Notes under the pieces: generated by a model
The model's input: only the letters and a program-made list of their open reading frames with translations
Databases searched by the model: none
What the model was told of the DNA's origin: nothing
Position numbers and translations under genes: made by a program
Shown: positions 30,096-56,409 of the stretch, piece by piece
Position numbering within the stretch: the stretch's first letter is position 1
How the letters are laid out: each line of letters begins with the position of its first letter
Assembly: GCA_022615965.1 (NCBI GenBank)
Contig: JAKEGG010000055.1
Coordinates: forward strand, 1-56,806
Direction: 5' to 3'
Source of the DNA: Fusobacteriota bacterium
GTDB taxonomy: Bacteria > Bacillota > TC1
Length of the DNA stretch: 56,806 bases

Positions 30096-30102
30096 TAAAG
30101 AA

Positions 30103-30132
30103 AAAATACCGAAGATAAAACTTCGGTATTTT
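30103..30132. terminator. Bidirectional terminator
   Basis: A 12-bp stem, AAAATACCGAAG with CTTCGGTATTTT, has a 6-base loop and lies between tlpA (plus) and the ferritin-like gene (minus). Confidence 0.85.
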
Positions 30133-30140
30133 TATATCAA

Positions 30141-30755
30141 TTAATGAATCATATCATCAAAGGAACGACCTAACCAATTGAAAAATCTGGTAATGATATT
30201 GTCATCAACTGTATTTTCCATGTTGATGCCATTTATTTCATCAAGGCTGGCTTCAATAGCCTTCAGATCCTGATTGCCTCTTAACCTTAAGGCTTCTAAG
30301 ACTACTCTGACATCATCTGGCAGATCTTGCTTCAAAAACATTTCATACATAATAATGTTTTTTATTTCATTATTGTAGCTATACTCTAAATTAGTCTTAA
30401 AGTCAGTTGCAGCTTTAAAATATTTACTGCTTTTATCCTCAGGGATTTTATAGCCTCTTTTCAAAAAAAGAATTTCCAACTCGGAAATACCAGTCCCACT
30501 ATATCTTTCCATTTCCTGGTAAAGTTTGACCTTGCCAAAACTATTGAAAATTCCATTATCTATGCTTCTTTTTAAATACTGGCTTTCCAAGGAATATCTC
30601 AATATATCCTCAAGAGTAAGCTCCTTATCCTCTACTGCATTTTCAGCTCCATACAAAACAGGTTCTGAAGCCTTAACAGCAGTTCCAGAAAAGATAATCA
30701 AAGAAAACATTATCACTAAGCCAATACATAATTCAGCCAATTTTCTCAAAATCAA
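30141..30755 (-). CDS. Exported DUF2202-like ferritin-fold protein, metal ligands degraded
   Basis: A 204-residue protein with a signal or anchor segment (about residues 8-27). It is related to the DUF2202 protein encoded at 54282-54938. The shared block is NEIKNIIMYEMFLKQDLPDDV against AEIDNIAMYEKFLSTDLPDDV in the paralogue. The E-x-x-H of the first half becomes a Gly-containing segment here (about GTGISEL), and the second His (YNHLAAFE in the paralogue) is Asp (NQDLKAIE). Metal oxidase activity is therefore unlikely. The C-terminus is extended by about 25 residues. A TTG start follows AGGAGGATAAG. Confidence 0.75.
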   Translation of the reverse strand: MILRKLAELCIGLVIMFSLIIFSGTAVKASEPVLYGAENAVEDKELTLEDILRYSLESQYLKRSIDNGIFNSFGKVKLYQEMERYSGTGISELEILFLKRGYKIPEDKSSKYFKAATDFKTNLEYSYNNEIKNIIMYEMFLKQDLPDDVRVVLEALRLRGNQDLKAIEASLDEINGINMENTVDDNIITRFFNWLGRSFDDMIH

Positions 30756-30788: not shown

Positions 30789-31193
30789 TTATACTCCTTT
30801 ACTACAACTAGAACAATAGCCTACCAGCTCTAATTTATGTCCTGATATAATGAAGTCGGTTTTTTTGCTTAAATCTTTCTCATACTCCTTTATAGGGCAA
30901 TCCTCAAGGGGTAAAATCAAACCACAGCAGAGACATCTAAGAAAGTGATGATGCTCCAAACCAGCAACCTCATAAAAAAATCTGTTATCCTCGCCAATGG
31001 TGATTCTCTTGACCAAGCCTTTTGTCACTAAACAATCGAGACCTCTGTAAACAGTTGATAAATTCAACTTATTACCGGTTTTGATCAGCTCCAAATAAAT
31101 AGTATCTACACAAACCGGAGTTGCTGCCTCCTCTATCATCTTGAAAATATTGGCTCTATTGCTGGTTAGCCTTGGATTGATCTTAGCCTTCAT
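30789..31193 (-). CDS. Fur-family metal regulator (Zur-like)
   Basis: A 134-residue winged-helix regulator. The recognition region is NLSTVYRGLDCLVTKGLVKR at about residues 39-58. The metal-site HHHFLRCLCCG and the C-terminal CSSC give the structural Cys4 zinc site, and GHKLELVGYC is the usual Fur/Zur dimerisation motif. As the last gene of the znuACB operon it probably represses that operon when zinc is sufficient, acting at the palindrome at 33646-33674. Fur or PerR function cannot be excluded. The ATG overlaps the znuB end by 11 bases. Confidence 0.88.
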   Translation of the reverse strand: MKAKINPRLTSNRANIFKMIEEAATPVCVDTIYLELIKTGNKLNLSTVYRGLDCLVTKGLVKRITIGEDNRFFYEVAGLEHHHFLRCLCCGLILPLEDCPIKEYEKDLSKKTDFIISGHKLELVGYCSSCSKGV

Positions 31194-32010
31194 TTCTTCT
31201 CTCCTTAAAAATTCTGCTGGTAGCCAGATAAAGAAATAAATAACTTAATACTGACATTACTACAATCACTCCACCAGAAGGCATATTGCCTAGATAGGAA
31301 ATTACCAAGCCTGATAAAGTAAAGATTAAACCCAAAGCTACAGCACCAATGATCCTGGTGCCTAATTTATGAAACAACAATCTTGCAGCTGCAGCTGGGG
31401 CAATAAGCATCGATAGACATAAAATAATTCCTACTCCTCTTATTAACACTACTACAGTGATACCAATCAAAAAAAGCAGCAGATATTCTAAAAAGACAGT
31501 AGCTCCACCTTTGATACTAGCAAATTCCTCATCAAACAAATAAGCCTTCCAGTTATTAAAAAGGCTAAAAACTAAAAATATTACCAACATGGTTAAAATT
31601 CCTAATAACCACAGATCCTCACTGGTTACAGCCAGAATATTGCCAAATAGATAAGAGCTTAAATTAGGAGGATATCCTGGCATCAAAGCAATAAAAATTA
31701 TACCTAAAGACATGCCTAAAGACCAGAACAAACCAATGATAATGTCCTTGTCAGTTCCTCCTTTTCTTTTTAGTGCACCAACACCAAAAGCAGAAATCAA
31801 GGCAAATATGAAGGCTCCAATAATAGGGGTAAAGCCTAACAGATAGCCAAGTCCAACTCCTCCATAGGAAGCATGGGCTATGCCTCCAGCCATCATCACC
31901 ATTTTCTTCTCAACAACTATCACACCAATTATACCTGCAACTATGCTCGTGAATACGGATGCTATCAAGGCATTTTGTAAAAAAGCATAACTTAAAAAAT
32001 CATTTAACAT
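31183..32010 (-). CDS. znuB: Zinc/manganese ABC permease (ZnuB-type)
   Basis: A 275-residue ABC-3 family permease with about eight helices. Conserved segments are GGIAHASYGGVGLGYLLG (about residues 41-58) and LSMLIAPAAAARLL. It forms the channel of the zinc-type importer. It starts directly after the znuC stop, with GAGGAG from the znuC end serving as ribosome binding site. Confidence 0.9.
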   Translation of the reverse strand: MLNDFLSYAFLQNALIASVFTSIVAGIIGVIVVEKKMVMMAGGIAHASYGGVGLGYLLGFTPIIGAFIFALISAFGVGALKRKGGTDKDIIIGLFWSLGMSLGIIFIALMPGYPPNLSSYLFGNILAVTSEDLWLLGILTMLVIFLVFSLFNNWKAYLFDEEFASIKGGATVFLEYLLLFLIGITVVVLIRGVGIILCLSMLIAPAAAARLLFHKLGTRIIGAVALGLIFTLSGLVISYLGNMPSGGVIVVMSVLSYLFLYLATSRIFKERRNEG

Positions 32011-32769
32011 CTAATTCTCCTCATGTTCTTTTAAGACTCTATGAGGCACACCATGAGCCACCAGCTCTACTGGGCAGCCATACATTTTCTCAACTACCTC
32101 TTCATTCAAGGTAGGTACACCATGATATACCAAAGATAAATTCAAACAAGCCAGTTCCTTAACACAAGTTGAAATTGCCAGGACATTATGAGTAACCAAA
32201 ACAATAGTGATCTCCTTGTTCAACTCTCCTAAAAGCTCATATATCTCCTGACTTGATCTTGGATCTATACTGGCTGTTGGCTCATCCAACAATAGGATCC
32301 TGGGACTTACCATCAAAGCTCTGGCAATTAAAAGCTTTTGAAATTCCCCACCTGAAAGCTGGCTCAGTCTTCTTTCCTCCATGCCCTTTAAACCAACCTT
32401 GTCCAATAATATAAAGGCATTTTCTTTATCTTTATCACTATAGCTGTGAAAAAAGCTTAAGCCTTTATTCTGAGCTCCTAAGAGGACAACTTCCAGTACT
32501 GTTATTGGAAAATCCTTATCGACTCCGGATATCTGGGGTACATAACCAATAAGATGACGGTTTTTCTTTGGTGACTCTCCGAATATTTTAACTTCACCAG
32601 TTTCATAGGGAACAAGGCCTAAAATGGCTTTTAATAATGTGGATTTTCCTCCTCCATTAGGGCCCATGATGGCCAGATAGCTTCCTTCTTTTACTTCCAA
32701 AGATACTTTGCTCAGGGCTTTTACTTCACCATAAGATATATTCAGTCCTGATACTTCTAAAGCATTCAT
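32011..32769 (-). CDS. znuC: Zinc/manganese ABC ATPase (ZnuC-type)
   Basis: A 252-residue ABC ATPase. Walker A is GPNGGGKST (about residues 36-44), signature LSGGEFQK, Walker B RILLLDEPTASID and switch His VTHN. It powers the import of a divalent metal with the adjacent permease and binding protein. The ATG overlaps the znuA stop by 4 bases. Confidence 0.93.
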   Translation of the reverse strand: MNALEVSGLNISYGEVKALSKVSLEVKEGSYLAIMGPNGGGKSTLLKAILGLVPYETGEVKIFGESPKKNRHLIGYVPQISGVDKDFPITVLEVVLLGAQNKGLSFFHSYSDKDKENAFILLDKVGLKGMEERRLSQLSGGEFQKLLIARALMVSPRILLLDEPTASIDPRSSQEIYELLGELNKEITIVLVTHNVLAISTCVKELACLNLSLVYHGVPTLNEEVVEKMYGCPVELVAHGVPHRVLKEHEEN

Positions 32770-33629
32770 AGTACTTCTCCAATATTCTCAGCCAGCTTAT
32801 ACATCATATCGATATAGTCTTTTCCCAGGGTTTCAATCACTACGATCTTACCTCCTGTTTCTTGAGCAAAAGCATCTCCTTGTTTGGCATCAGCTTCACT
32901 AGTCATCAATAACCCTTTGATGTTTTTATCCTTGGCTAATTCGACCATAGCGATCAGATGGCCAGGGCTGGCTTCCTTGCCTTCTTCTTCTAAAGCATAC
33001 ATGCTTAAGCTATAGTCGGCGGCAAAATATCCTAAGGCCGGATGAAAGATAATAAATTCCTTGCCTTTACTTCCTGCCAGCAAGGTGCTGATTTTTTGAT
33101 CCAAGTCTTTTAATTGAGCAATGTACTCATTTGCATTACCCTTATATAGCTCTTTGTTTTCAGGATCCAACTCTCCTAAGTAGCTGGCAATTTCTTCAAC
33201 CATCACTATACTTCTTTTGATCGATAGCCAGATATGAGGATCTCTTGTAGTATCCTCAAACTTCCTCTCAGGGTAAACCTCAGCTACCTTCTTATCTAAC
33301 TCGATCACCTTCATGCCCTTGTCTATAGAAAAACCCTTTGACTCTTCTGCAGGTAAGCCTAATGCAAAAAAAATATCTGCCTGGTTAAAGTCTGCTACAT
33401 CTTTAGGTGTAGGCTCATAAGTTTCAGGGCTGGCTCCCTTAGGGACCAGAACCTTGACCTGAACCAGTTCACCTCCTACTGCTTCAACCAGCTCAGCCTG
33501 AGGTAATATCGTTACTCCTACTTTGATTTTCCCGTTATTCTCAAAGCCTCCCTTATTATTACATCCAGTAATTATCCCTGTTAATATCAGTATAATGATC
33601 AATATGATTCCTGCTTTAAATAATTTCAT
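32766..33629 (-). CDS. znuA: Zinc/manganese-binding lipoprotein (ZnuA-type)
   Basis: A 287-residue lipoprotein of the cluster A-I metal-binding family. The lipobox is GIITGC. Metal-site and signature segments are GVTILPQAELVEAVGG, the His in RDPHIWLS and the His in FHPALGYFA. There is no long His-rich loop. I start at 33629, behind GGAGGGG, rather than 14 codons upstream. The longer frame would have to begin inside the operator hairpin and lacks a signal sequence. Zn or Mn specificity cannot be read directly; the Zur-like partner favours zinc. Confidence 0.9.
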   Translation of the reverse strand: MKLFKAGIILIIILILTGIITGCNNKGGFENNGKIKVGVTILPQAELVEAVGGELVQVKVLVPKGASPETYEPTPKDVADFNQADIFFALGLPAEESKGFSIDKGMKVIELDKKVAEVYPERKFEDTTRDPHIWLSIKRSIVMVEEIASYLGELDPENKELYKGNANEYIAQLKDLDQKISTLLAGSKGKEFIIFHPALGYFAADYSLSMYALEEEGKEASPGHLIAMVELAKDKNIKGLLMTSEADAKQGDAFAQETGGKIVVIETLGKDYIDMMYKLAENIGEVL

Positions 33630-33645: not shown

Positions 33646-33674
33646 AAGATGCAAATGATTTGCATTTGCATCTT
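33646..33674. promoter_or_regulatory. Fur/Zur-family operator of the znu operon
   Basis: A 12-5-12 perfect inverted repeat, AAGATGCAAATG with CATTTGCATCTT. Inside it TGCAAAT-G-ATTTGCA (33650-33664) has the exact 7-1-7 geometry of Fur-family boxes, and a third half-site, ATTTGCA, follows at 33664-33670. It overlaps the predicted transcription start of znuA, an ideal place for repression. On the minus strand it also has six T residues after it, so it may double as the mrp terminator. Confidence 0.7.
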
Positions 33675-33676
33675 TG

Positions 33677-33705
33677 ATTATAGCTTATTACAGTATTGAT
33701 TACAA
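33677..33705 (-). promoter_or_regulatory. Promoter of znuACB-fur
   Basis: On the minus strand TTGTAA (33705-33700), a 17-base spacer and TATAAT (33682-33677) form a near-consensus sigma-A promoter. The -35 overlaps the end of the mrp gene. Confidence 0.75.
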
Positions 33706-34640: not shown

Positions 34641-34661
34641 TTGGTAACTTATGTTACCGAA
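34641..34661 (+). promoter_or_regulatory. CRP/FNR-type operator upstream of the DUF1858-DUF438 genes
   Basis: TTGGTAAC-TTAT-GTTACCGAA contains a perfect GGTAAC-N4-GTTACC palindrome centred at 34650.5. With the -10 TAGAAT at 34680-34685, the expected start is near 34692, so the site centre is at -41.5, the classic class II activator position. A TTGACT at 34662-34667 could pair with TATAAG at 34685-34690 as an alternative promoter. The same palindrome occurs at 40323-40352. Confidence 0.65.
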
Positions 34662-53870: not shown

Positions 53871-54164
53871 TTGAACACTAAGAGAATTAAGCTATTAAAA
53901 ACTCTTCCGATTGCCATTACCTTTGGCGCTTTAGGGATAGCAATGTTATCTGGTTTCAGCAGCCCTCAGGTTGCAGCTACAGAAGCACAAAACCGCCTAG
54001 GACAAGGACAAAGCCAATGCCTTAATCAGGAAGAATGTCAAAGCCAGTCTGTAGGACAAGAAAGCAAATACCAGTATCAATATGGCAGCAGCAACCAGGA
54101 AAATATGAAGCAAAACATGAGCCAAAACCAGGAAAACTGCACTAATACAGAGAACAAAAATTAA
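53871..54164 (+). CDS. Secreted Gln/Asn-rich small protein
   Basis: A 97-residue exported protein. A signal or anchor segment (about residues 7-30) is followed by a low-complexity polar tail, rich in Gln, Ser and Asn with Cys-containing short repeats (QSQCLNQEECQSQ). A TTG start follows AAAGGAGG. Its N-terminus (IKLLKTLPIAITFGALGIAM) resembles that of the next gene (NLLKAVPMILAFSVLGIGI), so the pair may share a secretion route or origin. No known family. Confidence 0.7.
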   Translation: MNTKRIKLLKTLPIAITFGALGIAMLSGFSSPQVAATEAQNRLGQGQSQCLNQEECQSQSVGQESKYQYQYGSSNQENMKQNMSQNQENCTNTENKN

Positions 54165-54281: not shown

Positions 54282-54938
54282 ATGAAAAATGAGCCAATCA
54301 ACACTAATAAAAATCATAACCTACTTAAAGCTGTTCCTATGATCCTTGCTTTTAGCGTTTTAGGAATAGGCATATTTACCCTAGCCGAAGGAGGAATAGC
54401 AGCTAAAGGATATAGAGCAGGTAACAGAGATATTGCCTCTACCACAATTACAACTAGCGATACAACTACAGATAAGCAAACACTAAGCGAGGAATTATCA
54501 CTTGTTGGGTATGGCAACAAAGGTGCTTTAGCAGATAGCGATCTGTCCTTGAAAGATATGCTGGCCTATGCCATCCAGGATGAATACACAGCCAGAGGAG
54601 AATATGAAGCTATAATCTCAACCTTTGGCAGCTCAGCACCATATACCAATATCATTAAATCAGAAACCTCTCATATCAGTTCCTTAACAACACTTTATGA
54701 GACCTATGGCCTGATAGCTCCAGCAGATGATTCCAAAAGTCATCTGGTTATTCCAGAAAGCCTGCTATCTGCAGCTCAAATAGGAGTTCAGGCTGAAATA
54801 GACAATATAGCAATGTATGAAAAATTCTTAAGCACTGACCTGCCTGATGACGTCAGACAAGTATTTGAAAGCTTAAAGGATGCTTCCTACAATCACTTAG
54901 CCGCCTTTGAAAAGCAAGTAAGCAAGCTTAGCAAATAA
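54282..54938 (+). CDS. Exported DUF2202 ferritin-like protein
   Basis: A 218-residue protein with an N-terminal hydrophobic anchor (about residues 14-34) and a Thr/Ser-rich linker. A DUF2202 ferritin-like four-helix domain (about 88-216) follows. Candidate metal ligands are in AIQDEYTARGEYE, SETSHIS (E128 and H131), AEIDNIAMYE and YNHLAAFE. It may bind iron or act as a small oxidase outside the cell, by family resemblance. A degenerate paralogue lies at 30141-30755. Confidence 0.85.
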   Translation: MKNEPINTNKNHNLLKAVPMILAFSVLGIGIFTLAEGGIAAKGYRAGNRDIASTTITTSDTTTDKQTLSEELSLVGYGNKGALADSDLSLKDMLAYAIQDEYTARGEYEAIISTFGSSAPYTNIIKSETSHISSLTTLYETYGLIAPADDSKSHLVIPESLLSAAQIGVQAEIDNIAMYEKFLSTDLPDDVRQVFESLKDASYNHLAAFEKQVSKLSK

Positions 54939-55656: not shown

Positions 55657-56409
55657 TTATATTCTTTCTAATATAAAAGCGGTCAAAAAACCTAATAAAG
55701 TAATCAAACCTGCAAAATCATGAGTCTCAGCAAAAGCTTCTGGAATCATAGTATCTACTATCATAGCCAGGATACCACCAGCAGCCAAAGCCATGATCAC
55801 AGCCAGGGTCGATGCTGACGCTCCTGTGAAAAGCAGGTTGCCTAAACCAGCAAAAATAGCGCTAAAAAGACATATCCCACCCCAGATACTAAAAATATAG
55901 CCTGCCTTTTTACCTTTTTCCTTCATGCCTGCAGTACTTGATAAGGCTTCAGGTATATTAGAAATAAAGATAGCTATAATTGTCGCCATACTAAGGCTGC
56001 TTCCCTCAATAAGACCAATTCCAATGATCAATGATTCTGGAATACCATCAATAAGTGCTCCTAAAGCTATTCCCAAGCTAGAATCCTGTTGATCATTCAG
56101 ATTCTTCATACCAGACCTTTTACGATGCTTGCCCCCAGCCTTGCTCAAGGCATAATTAGCTACGGTATAGATGATCCCACCCAGTAAAAAACCAAATACG
56201 ACCTCTGTAAAACCAGATCGTTTAAAGGCTTCTTCCATTAGCTCAAAGGAGAGGGCTGAAATAAGGACCCCACTACCGAAGGCCATGATTCCAGCCACTA
56301 CTCGTGCTTTTAAATTAAATTTAAACCCAATAAATGCTCCAATCAATAAAGAGCTTCCTGTTATGCCACCCCAGAAAGTAGCAGCCAGCCATATAGGCCA
56401 ATCAAACAT
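55657..56409 (-). CDS. ZIP-family metal transporter
   Basis: A 250-residue protein with about eight helices of the ZIP fold. TM4 and TM5 carry GALIDGIPESLIIG and ISNIPEALSST, the P-E positions of the metal channel. The usual His of TM4 (HNxPEG) is Asp-Gly here, as in a branch of bacterial ZIP proteins that lack the full zinc site. It probably moves a divalent metal, but which one and in which direction is uncertain. It follows the SDR pseudogene by 18 bases. Confidence 0.85.
   Translation of the reverse strand: MFDWPIWLAATFWGGITGSSLLIGAFIGFKFNLKARVVAGIMAFGSGVLISALSFELMEEAFKRSGFTEVVFGFLLGGIIYTVANYALSKAGGKHRKRSGMKNLNDQQDSSLGIALGALIDGIPESLIIGIGLIEGSSLSMATIIAIFISNIPEALSSTAGMKEKGKKAGYIFSIWGGICLFSAIFAGLGNLLFTGASASTLAVIMALAAGGILAMIVDTMIPEAFAETHDFAGLITLLGFLTAFILERI

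Follow-up and report, generated by a model that had tools for sequence, protein, structure and literature searches.

A highly divergent DUF2202 ferritin-like protein without most of the family's metal-ligand positions, downstream of zur in a zinc-uptake gene cluster

The locus and its genes

The window, by which we mean the whole stretch of 56,806 nucleotides that was analysed, encodes two proteins of the DUF2202 kind, P0001 and P0002, whose features are collected in Table 1 together with those of the zinc-uptake genes. The P0001 frame is open over all 204 codons, running from 30755 down to 30141. Within its signal-peptide-like N-terminus, residues 3-22 form a helix in the predicted structure. 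His204 and Cys10 are the only His and Cys in the whole protein, and the bundle has neither. The last 22 residues, a tail with pLDDT of 53-58 and an Eisenberg moment of 0.65-0.77 for stretches beginning at 187-191, are a possible amphipathic helix that could touch the membrane or a partner. The GC content of P0001 (0.332) is the lowest among 11 genes compared (0.348-0.410 for the rest), but its GC3 of 0.332 lies inside the range of the other genes (0.268-0.393), so that composition gives no clear sign for or against a foreign origin. Near P0002 we also observe a ZIP-like metal transporter at 55657-56409, which scores 34.5 bits, slightly below the Pfam cut-off of 35.1, and just before P0002 a Gln/Asn-rich short frame at 53871-54164 with an export-type N-terminus by eye and no Pfam match.

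Table 1. Coordinates of the features discussed, in positions of the window.
Feature	Position	Strand	Remarks
P0001, ligand-less DUF2202-type ferritin-like protein, probably exported	30141..30755	-	204 aa, TTG start
Shine-Dalgarno AGGAGG of P0001	30761..30766	-	5 bases upstream of TTG; read from sequence
P0001 signal-peptide-like N-terminus, residues 1-29	30669..30755	-	VKA/S, without lipobox; by eye
Gln59 replacing family Glu, helix A	30579..30581	-	family alignment
Lys62 replacing Ala	30570..30572	-	family alignment; Ala in 91/91 ligand-keeping rows
Ser86 replacing family Glu, helix B	30498..30500	-	family alignment
Gly89 replacing family His, helix B	30489..30491	-	family alignment
Glu130, sole retained ligand position, helix C	30366..30368	-	family alignment
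Asp163 replacing family His, helix D	30267..30269	-	family alignment
P0001 C-terminal tail, residues 183-204, amphipathic	30144..30209	-	missing from P0002; low model confidence
Terminator-like palindrome, 13 pairs, between P0001 and tlpA	30102..30133	.	
zur-like Fur-family regulator	30789..31193	-	
znuB, ABC-3 permease	31183..32010	-	
znuC, ABC ATPase	32011..32769	-	
znuA, metal-binding protein	32766..33629	-	longest frame from 33671; ATG after GGAGG at 33629 likelier
Fur-type palindrome, perfect 8-1-8	33649..33665	.	pattern scan; at znuA promoter
Promoter-like TTGTAA-17-TATAAT before znuA	33677..33705	-	
P0002, intact DUF2202 protein	54282..54938	+	all five ligand positions present

The minus strand carries, in order, mrp, znuA, znuC, znuB, zur and P0001, separated by short gaps or overlapping. 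The initial annotation placed P0001 beside the zinc operon and the redox genes ccdA-tlpA. For the zinc operon this is correct but too weak, as P0001 is its last co-directional gene, 33 bp from zur. The ccdA-tlpA genes are convergent to P0001, with a terminator-like palindrome in between. The regulator is named Zur by its context; in NCBIfam its score for PerR (74.5 bits) exceeds that for Zur (30), and both are far below cut-off. The order mrp-znuA-znuC-znuB-zur is also found in the related genomes G002, G003, G004 and G005 (with znuB over two frames in G002, G003 and G004), and G007 has znuA-znuC-znuB-zur. In G002, G003 and G004, three genomes of the same genus, tlpA-ccdA is convergent after zur and P0001 is not present between them. 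The slot after zur holds a small unrelated frame in G002 (L144, 4708-5022) and other genes in G005 (L142).

The palindrome at the znuA promoter, ATGCAAATCATTTGCAT, which we take to be of Fur-family type, follows the promoter-like TTGTAA-17-TATAAT. Allowing one mismatch, its pattern has this single site in the 1.08 Mb assembly, where the reversed control pattern has none (once each in G001, G007 and G008). The pattern is also present at znuA in G002, G003, G005 and G007, and by eye something similar in G004. There is one more site each in G005 (C15) and G007 (C23) and one elsewhere in G006, which are candidate operators at most; the two that we inspected lie in or beside unrelated frames. With its T-run, ATGCAAATCATTTGCAT also resembles a terminator and might stop transcription from mrp. 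Between the zur start and P0001 the minus strand showed no promoter-like or terminator-like site; in the stretch scanned promoter-like matches are only a little above shuffles (22 vs 15.6, sd 4.4) and terminator-like sites number 7 against 3.1. Because nothing of either kind separates zur from P0001, a terminator-like palindrome follows P0001, and ATGCAAATCATTTGCAT stands at znuA, P0001 is likely cotranscribed with the operon and under its zinc control. A further palindrome, GGTAACATAAGTTACC, lies at 34643-34658 between mrp and a divergent DUF1858 gene, and the corresponding stretch of sister genomes has by eye a palindrome like GTATCTnnnGATAC.

Kinship, fold and lost ligand positions

P0001 aligns with P0002 without gaps at 32% identity over 143 aa (BLASTP, E 2e-23 in a single comparison). 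As the initial annotation had it, the core motif is kept, as NEIKNIIMYEMFL in P0001 and AEIDNIAMYEKFL in P0002, with LPDDVR in both. The alignment also holds with a profile of 91 ligand-keeping relatives, built with P0001 left out, which gives P0001 123.6 bits; since the best of 200 shuffled versions of P0001 reaches 3.0 bits, the match is not due to chance. Homology to DUF2202 (PF09968) extends over the domain, and by its sequence P0001 is a true but very divergent DUF2202 ferritin-like relative. Pfam's DUF2202 model gives P0002 33 bits against a cut-off of 22, while P0001 stays below the gathering score and has no PF09968 match at a maximum E of 0.1 or 10 (the HMMER filters drop most matches above 0.1). 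Pfam, NCBIfam and PHROGs offer no credible family for P0001, peptide patterns specific to it retrieve no relatives from the scanned genome contigs, and literature searches for "DUF2202" or "MJ0754", alone and combined, returned no paper.

Relatives came from whole-genome searches, one plasmid record, 5 loci on viral contigs, and a scan of genome contigs, from which we retained the 80 of 223 most similar to P0001. Merging of duplicates, that is of any protein that contains another row or shares its final 80 residues, left 98 rows including P0001 and P0002, 96 of them near full length (the partial L031 and L033 were excluded). The ligand-keeping set of 91 is all rows minus P0001, four Clostridium proteins that have lost ligands, and the two partials; it includes L091, which has a gap at 163. 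The five viral loci are IMG/VR contigs (L114-L118), phage or mis-called host DNA, that encode DUF2202 proteins, four of them distinct, with all five ligands kept.

The positions E59, E86, H89, E130 and H163, which form the pattern E, ExxH, E, H that we take to be metal ligands from ferritin-like proteins at large, are retained in 91 of the 96 near-full-length rows (one of the 91 being gapped at 163); because the contig-scan patterns require the helix-A or helix-C stretch, the conserved state of E59 and E130 follows in part from the search itself, which does not apply to E86, H89 and H163. P0001 has Q59, S86, G89, E130 and D163, with one of the five kept and four gone. The initial annotation had noted Gly and Asp in place of the expected His, and these are indeed Gly89 and Asp163, aligned with His131 and His205 of P0002; the loss goes further than it claimed, since the Glu of helix A and that of helix B have also been replaced. 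Its word "degenerate" suits the rest of the protein as well. P0001 keeps 18 of the 34 positions that are conserved in at least 90% of the 91 ligand-keeping rows, and has lost 12 conserved non-ligand positions, against 0-6 in each of those rows. Among positions invariant in the 91 rows, D58, A62, Y66, I82 and S160 are changed in P0001, and N133, I134, Y137 and L156 are retained.

Structure prediction, with alignments of 58 of 82 usable relatives, gives a four-helix bundle for P0001 and P0002 alike. The AlphaFold2 model of P0001, a bundle of the ferritin kind, has pLDDT of 93-98 by ten-residue blocks over 41-170 and a pTM of 0.74. Its best Foldseek match is MJ0754 (3q4n, E 1.5e-4), a protein of known structure to which P0002 is also similar in sequence (E 4e-4); a sequence search of the PDB with P0001 found no relative. 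VIA-align superposes P0001 on bacterioferritin 8jax_B with a Z of 17.7 and an rmsd of 2.4 A over 135 residues. This exceeds the level, a Z of about 13, under which a similar arrangement of helices can by itself produce a match between bundles. MJ0754, first in Foldseek, is missing among the 50 rows listed by VIA-align. Neither model contains a placed metal, and in P0001 the residues Glu130, Asp163 and Gln59 could hold one weakly.

Distribution and descent

In a tree built with the ligand columns removed, P0001 is the longest terminal branch (2.04 vs a median of 0.27, or 7.5 times) and has no well supported placement. We distrust its pairing with L035 in the free tree, which has a bootstrap of 97 but an SH-aLRT of 58. 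P0002 groups with support with sequences of G002, G005, G007 and others. The term "paralogue" of the initial annotation is true only loosely, and the free tree does not join P0001 and P0002; a forced join is not rejected (AU 0.358), and neither is P0001 constrained to the P0002 clade (AU 0.267). Constraining P0001 with the four Clostridium proteins raises the log likelihood by 8.3 over the free search (AU 0.647). These four, which are the only other proteins with lost ligands among the 96 near-full-length rows, all come from one genus, in which 4 of 8 genomes have such a protein: L090 (Clostridium sp. ZS2-4, same contig as G358), L022 (G512), L023 (G519) and L024 (G399). At positions 59, 86, 89, 130 and 163 they read E,K,N,E,N in L090, E,K,N,E,H in L022, E,E,S,E,N in L023 and E,E,N,E,N in L024. 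Ala62 is changed in all five, to K in P0001 and to R, E, K and K in the Clostridium four; K62 and M82 are common to P0001 and two of the four, and position 126 is Ser in all five as compared with Gly in 84 of the 91 ligand-keepers. There may have been one or two losses of ligands, as P0001 and the Clostridium proteins are long branches and attraction between them is possible. The Clostridium proteins are under purifying selection, the two pairs compared having a dN/dS of about 0.11-0.35: 0.16/0.79 (NG86) and 0.15/1.44 (YN00) for L090-L022, and 0.23/0.66 (NG86) and 0.24/0.68 (YN00) for L023-L024. Directly after the ligand-less gene, two genomes of the genus (L148, L149) encode a membrane-like protein that is conserved at 84% identity from one to the other.

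Searches of the 5 other family genomes (E up to 0.01) and of 9 genomes of the order, four of which lie beyond the family (E up to 0.001), turned up no orthologue of P0001; some of the assemblies are incomplete (76-99%). Apart from a chance match in G003, the proteins that matched are intact-type ones from G002, G005 and G007. Nor do the zur-tlpA gaps of G002, G003 and G004, or the sequence beside zur in G005, show remnants of the gene: matches there stay at chance level (best E 0.39). Because the operon order is shared with relatives in which P0001 was not found, the simplest history has P0001 joining a conserved znuACB-zur operon at its 3' end in this lineage; loss of P0001 from the related genomes is possible. 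Among 85 DUF2202 loci elsewhere (BLASTP with the window genes, E 1e-6, flanks of up to 5 kb), none has a recognisable zur or znuA/B alongside; znuC matches 12 times, with the 25-36% identity expected of any ABC ATPase, and tlpA once. The zinc link so far appears particular to one lineage and to one locus.

Possible function and comparison with known systems

We consider it rather probable that P0001 is a repurposed, non-catalytic exported derivative of a DUF2202 protein, made with the zinc-uptake system; the lost ligands and the "new role" of the initial annotation both fit the evidence. P0001 would have kept the shape and lost the chemistry, lacking a dimetal centre, and Lys62 may fill the charge hole beside Glu130 and Asp163. 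It would be exported and work outside the membrane, where ZnuA acts, and would be made together with zinc uptake, mostly under zinc shortage; its carriage in the zinc operon suggests a task under such conditions. P0001 may then act by binding a protein or a membrane surface, perhaps through the amphipathic tail, and not by metal chemistry. This binding role is the weakest step of the explanation, and we consider it less likely than not. We regard as unlikely the wider proposal that a ferritin-fold protein, emptied of its metal centre, now serves a Zur-controlled zinc importer as an extracytoplasmic accessory, and that P0001 and the Clostridium proteins with lost ligands make up a functional class whose bundle core has a charged residue at 62 in place of the Ala of metal-keeping members.

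Other explanations start from the same facts. P0001 might have a new metal site, for zinc for example, made of Glu130, Asp163, Gln59 and their neighbours, and serve as a zinc buffer or as a chaperone for ZnuA. Its place in the zinc operon agrees with this, as does the title of 3q4r, according to which MJ0754 was crystallised with zinc, but a bundle without His and Cys and an added Lys62 adjoining the old site make such a function quite improbable. The initial annotation suggested a non-catalytic partner, and P0001 could be such a subunit of P0002 as Rnr4 is for Rnr2 in yeast, which would be a precedent in the ferritin fold (PMC3824934). Both proteins are encoded in the same genome with export-type N-termini by eye. 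Positive support ends there: their genes are separated by 23.5 kb and have different surroundings, the two proteins are not joined in the tree, and G002, G005 and G007 have orthologues of the intact protein where P0001 was not found. We hold a partnership to be very unlikely.

The reading to which we give least credence is that P0001 is a decaying gene without function. A branch so long and a protein present in one genome only are what decay would produce, and with one genome selection on P0001 itself is not measurable. Yet the frame, the ribosome site and the predicted fold are intact, more than half of the conserved family positions are kept, and neutral drift closes such frames: in simulation 23 of 2000 frames survive 0.2 changes per site, and 0 of 2000 survive 0.4. 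We thus prefer the repurposed, non-catalytic derivative. If true, it would be another metalloprotein fold kept after loss of the metal, here in an exported protein with a link to zinc supply, and the Clostridium clade offers a way to study ligand loss in strains that can perhaps be grown in culture.

A literature search for ferritin-like proteins that have lost metal-binding residues found none, and among the papers listed by wider searches we saw no such case by title and abstract start; PMC5007448, which has both "ferritin-like" and "Zur regulon", only compares zinc stores with ferritin. The yeast protein Rnr4 is missing key residues of the diiron centre and possibly works as a chaperone (PMC3824934); like P0001 it keeps the fold with metal ligands lost, whereas P0001 is without a known catalytic partner. 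With PF09968 (MJ0754: 3q4n, 3q4o, 3q4q, 3q4r) P0001 has in common its sequence kinship to members and the predicted four-helix bundle and, with the close clostridial members, an export-type N-terminus by eye. It differs in the loss of four of five ligand positions, the lack of a Pfam match, the extra C-terminal tail and the site in a zinc operon. The Clostridium clade differs from P0001 in keeping Glu59, in having lipobox-like N-termini by eye (that of L090 imperfect), and in a setting with no zur or znuA/B match within the fetched stretches, but it resembles P0001 in that His89 is lost, Ala62 replaced and Ser126 present in all four of its members.
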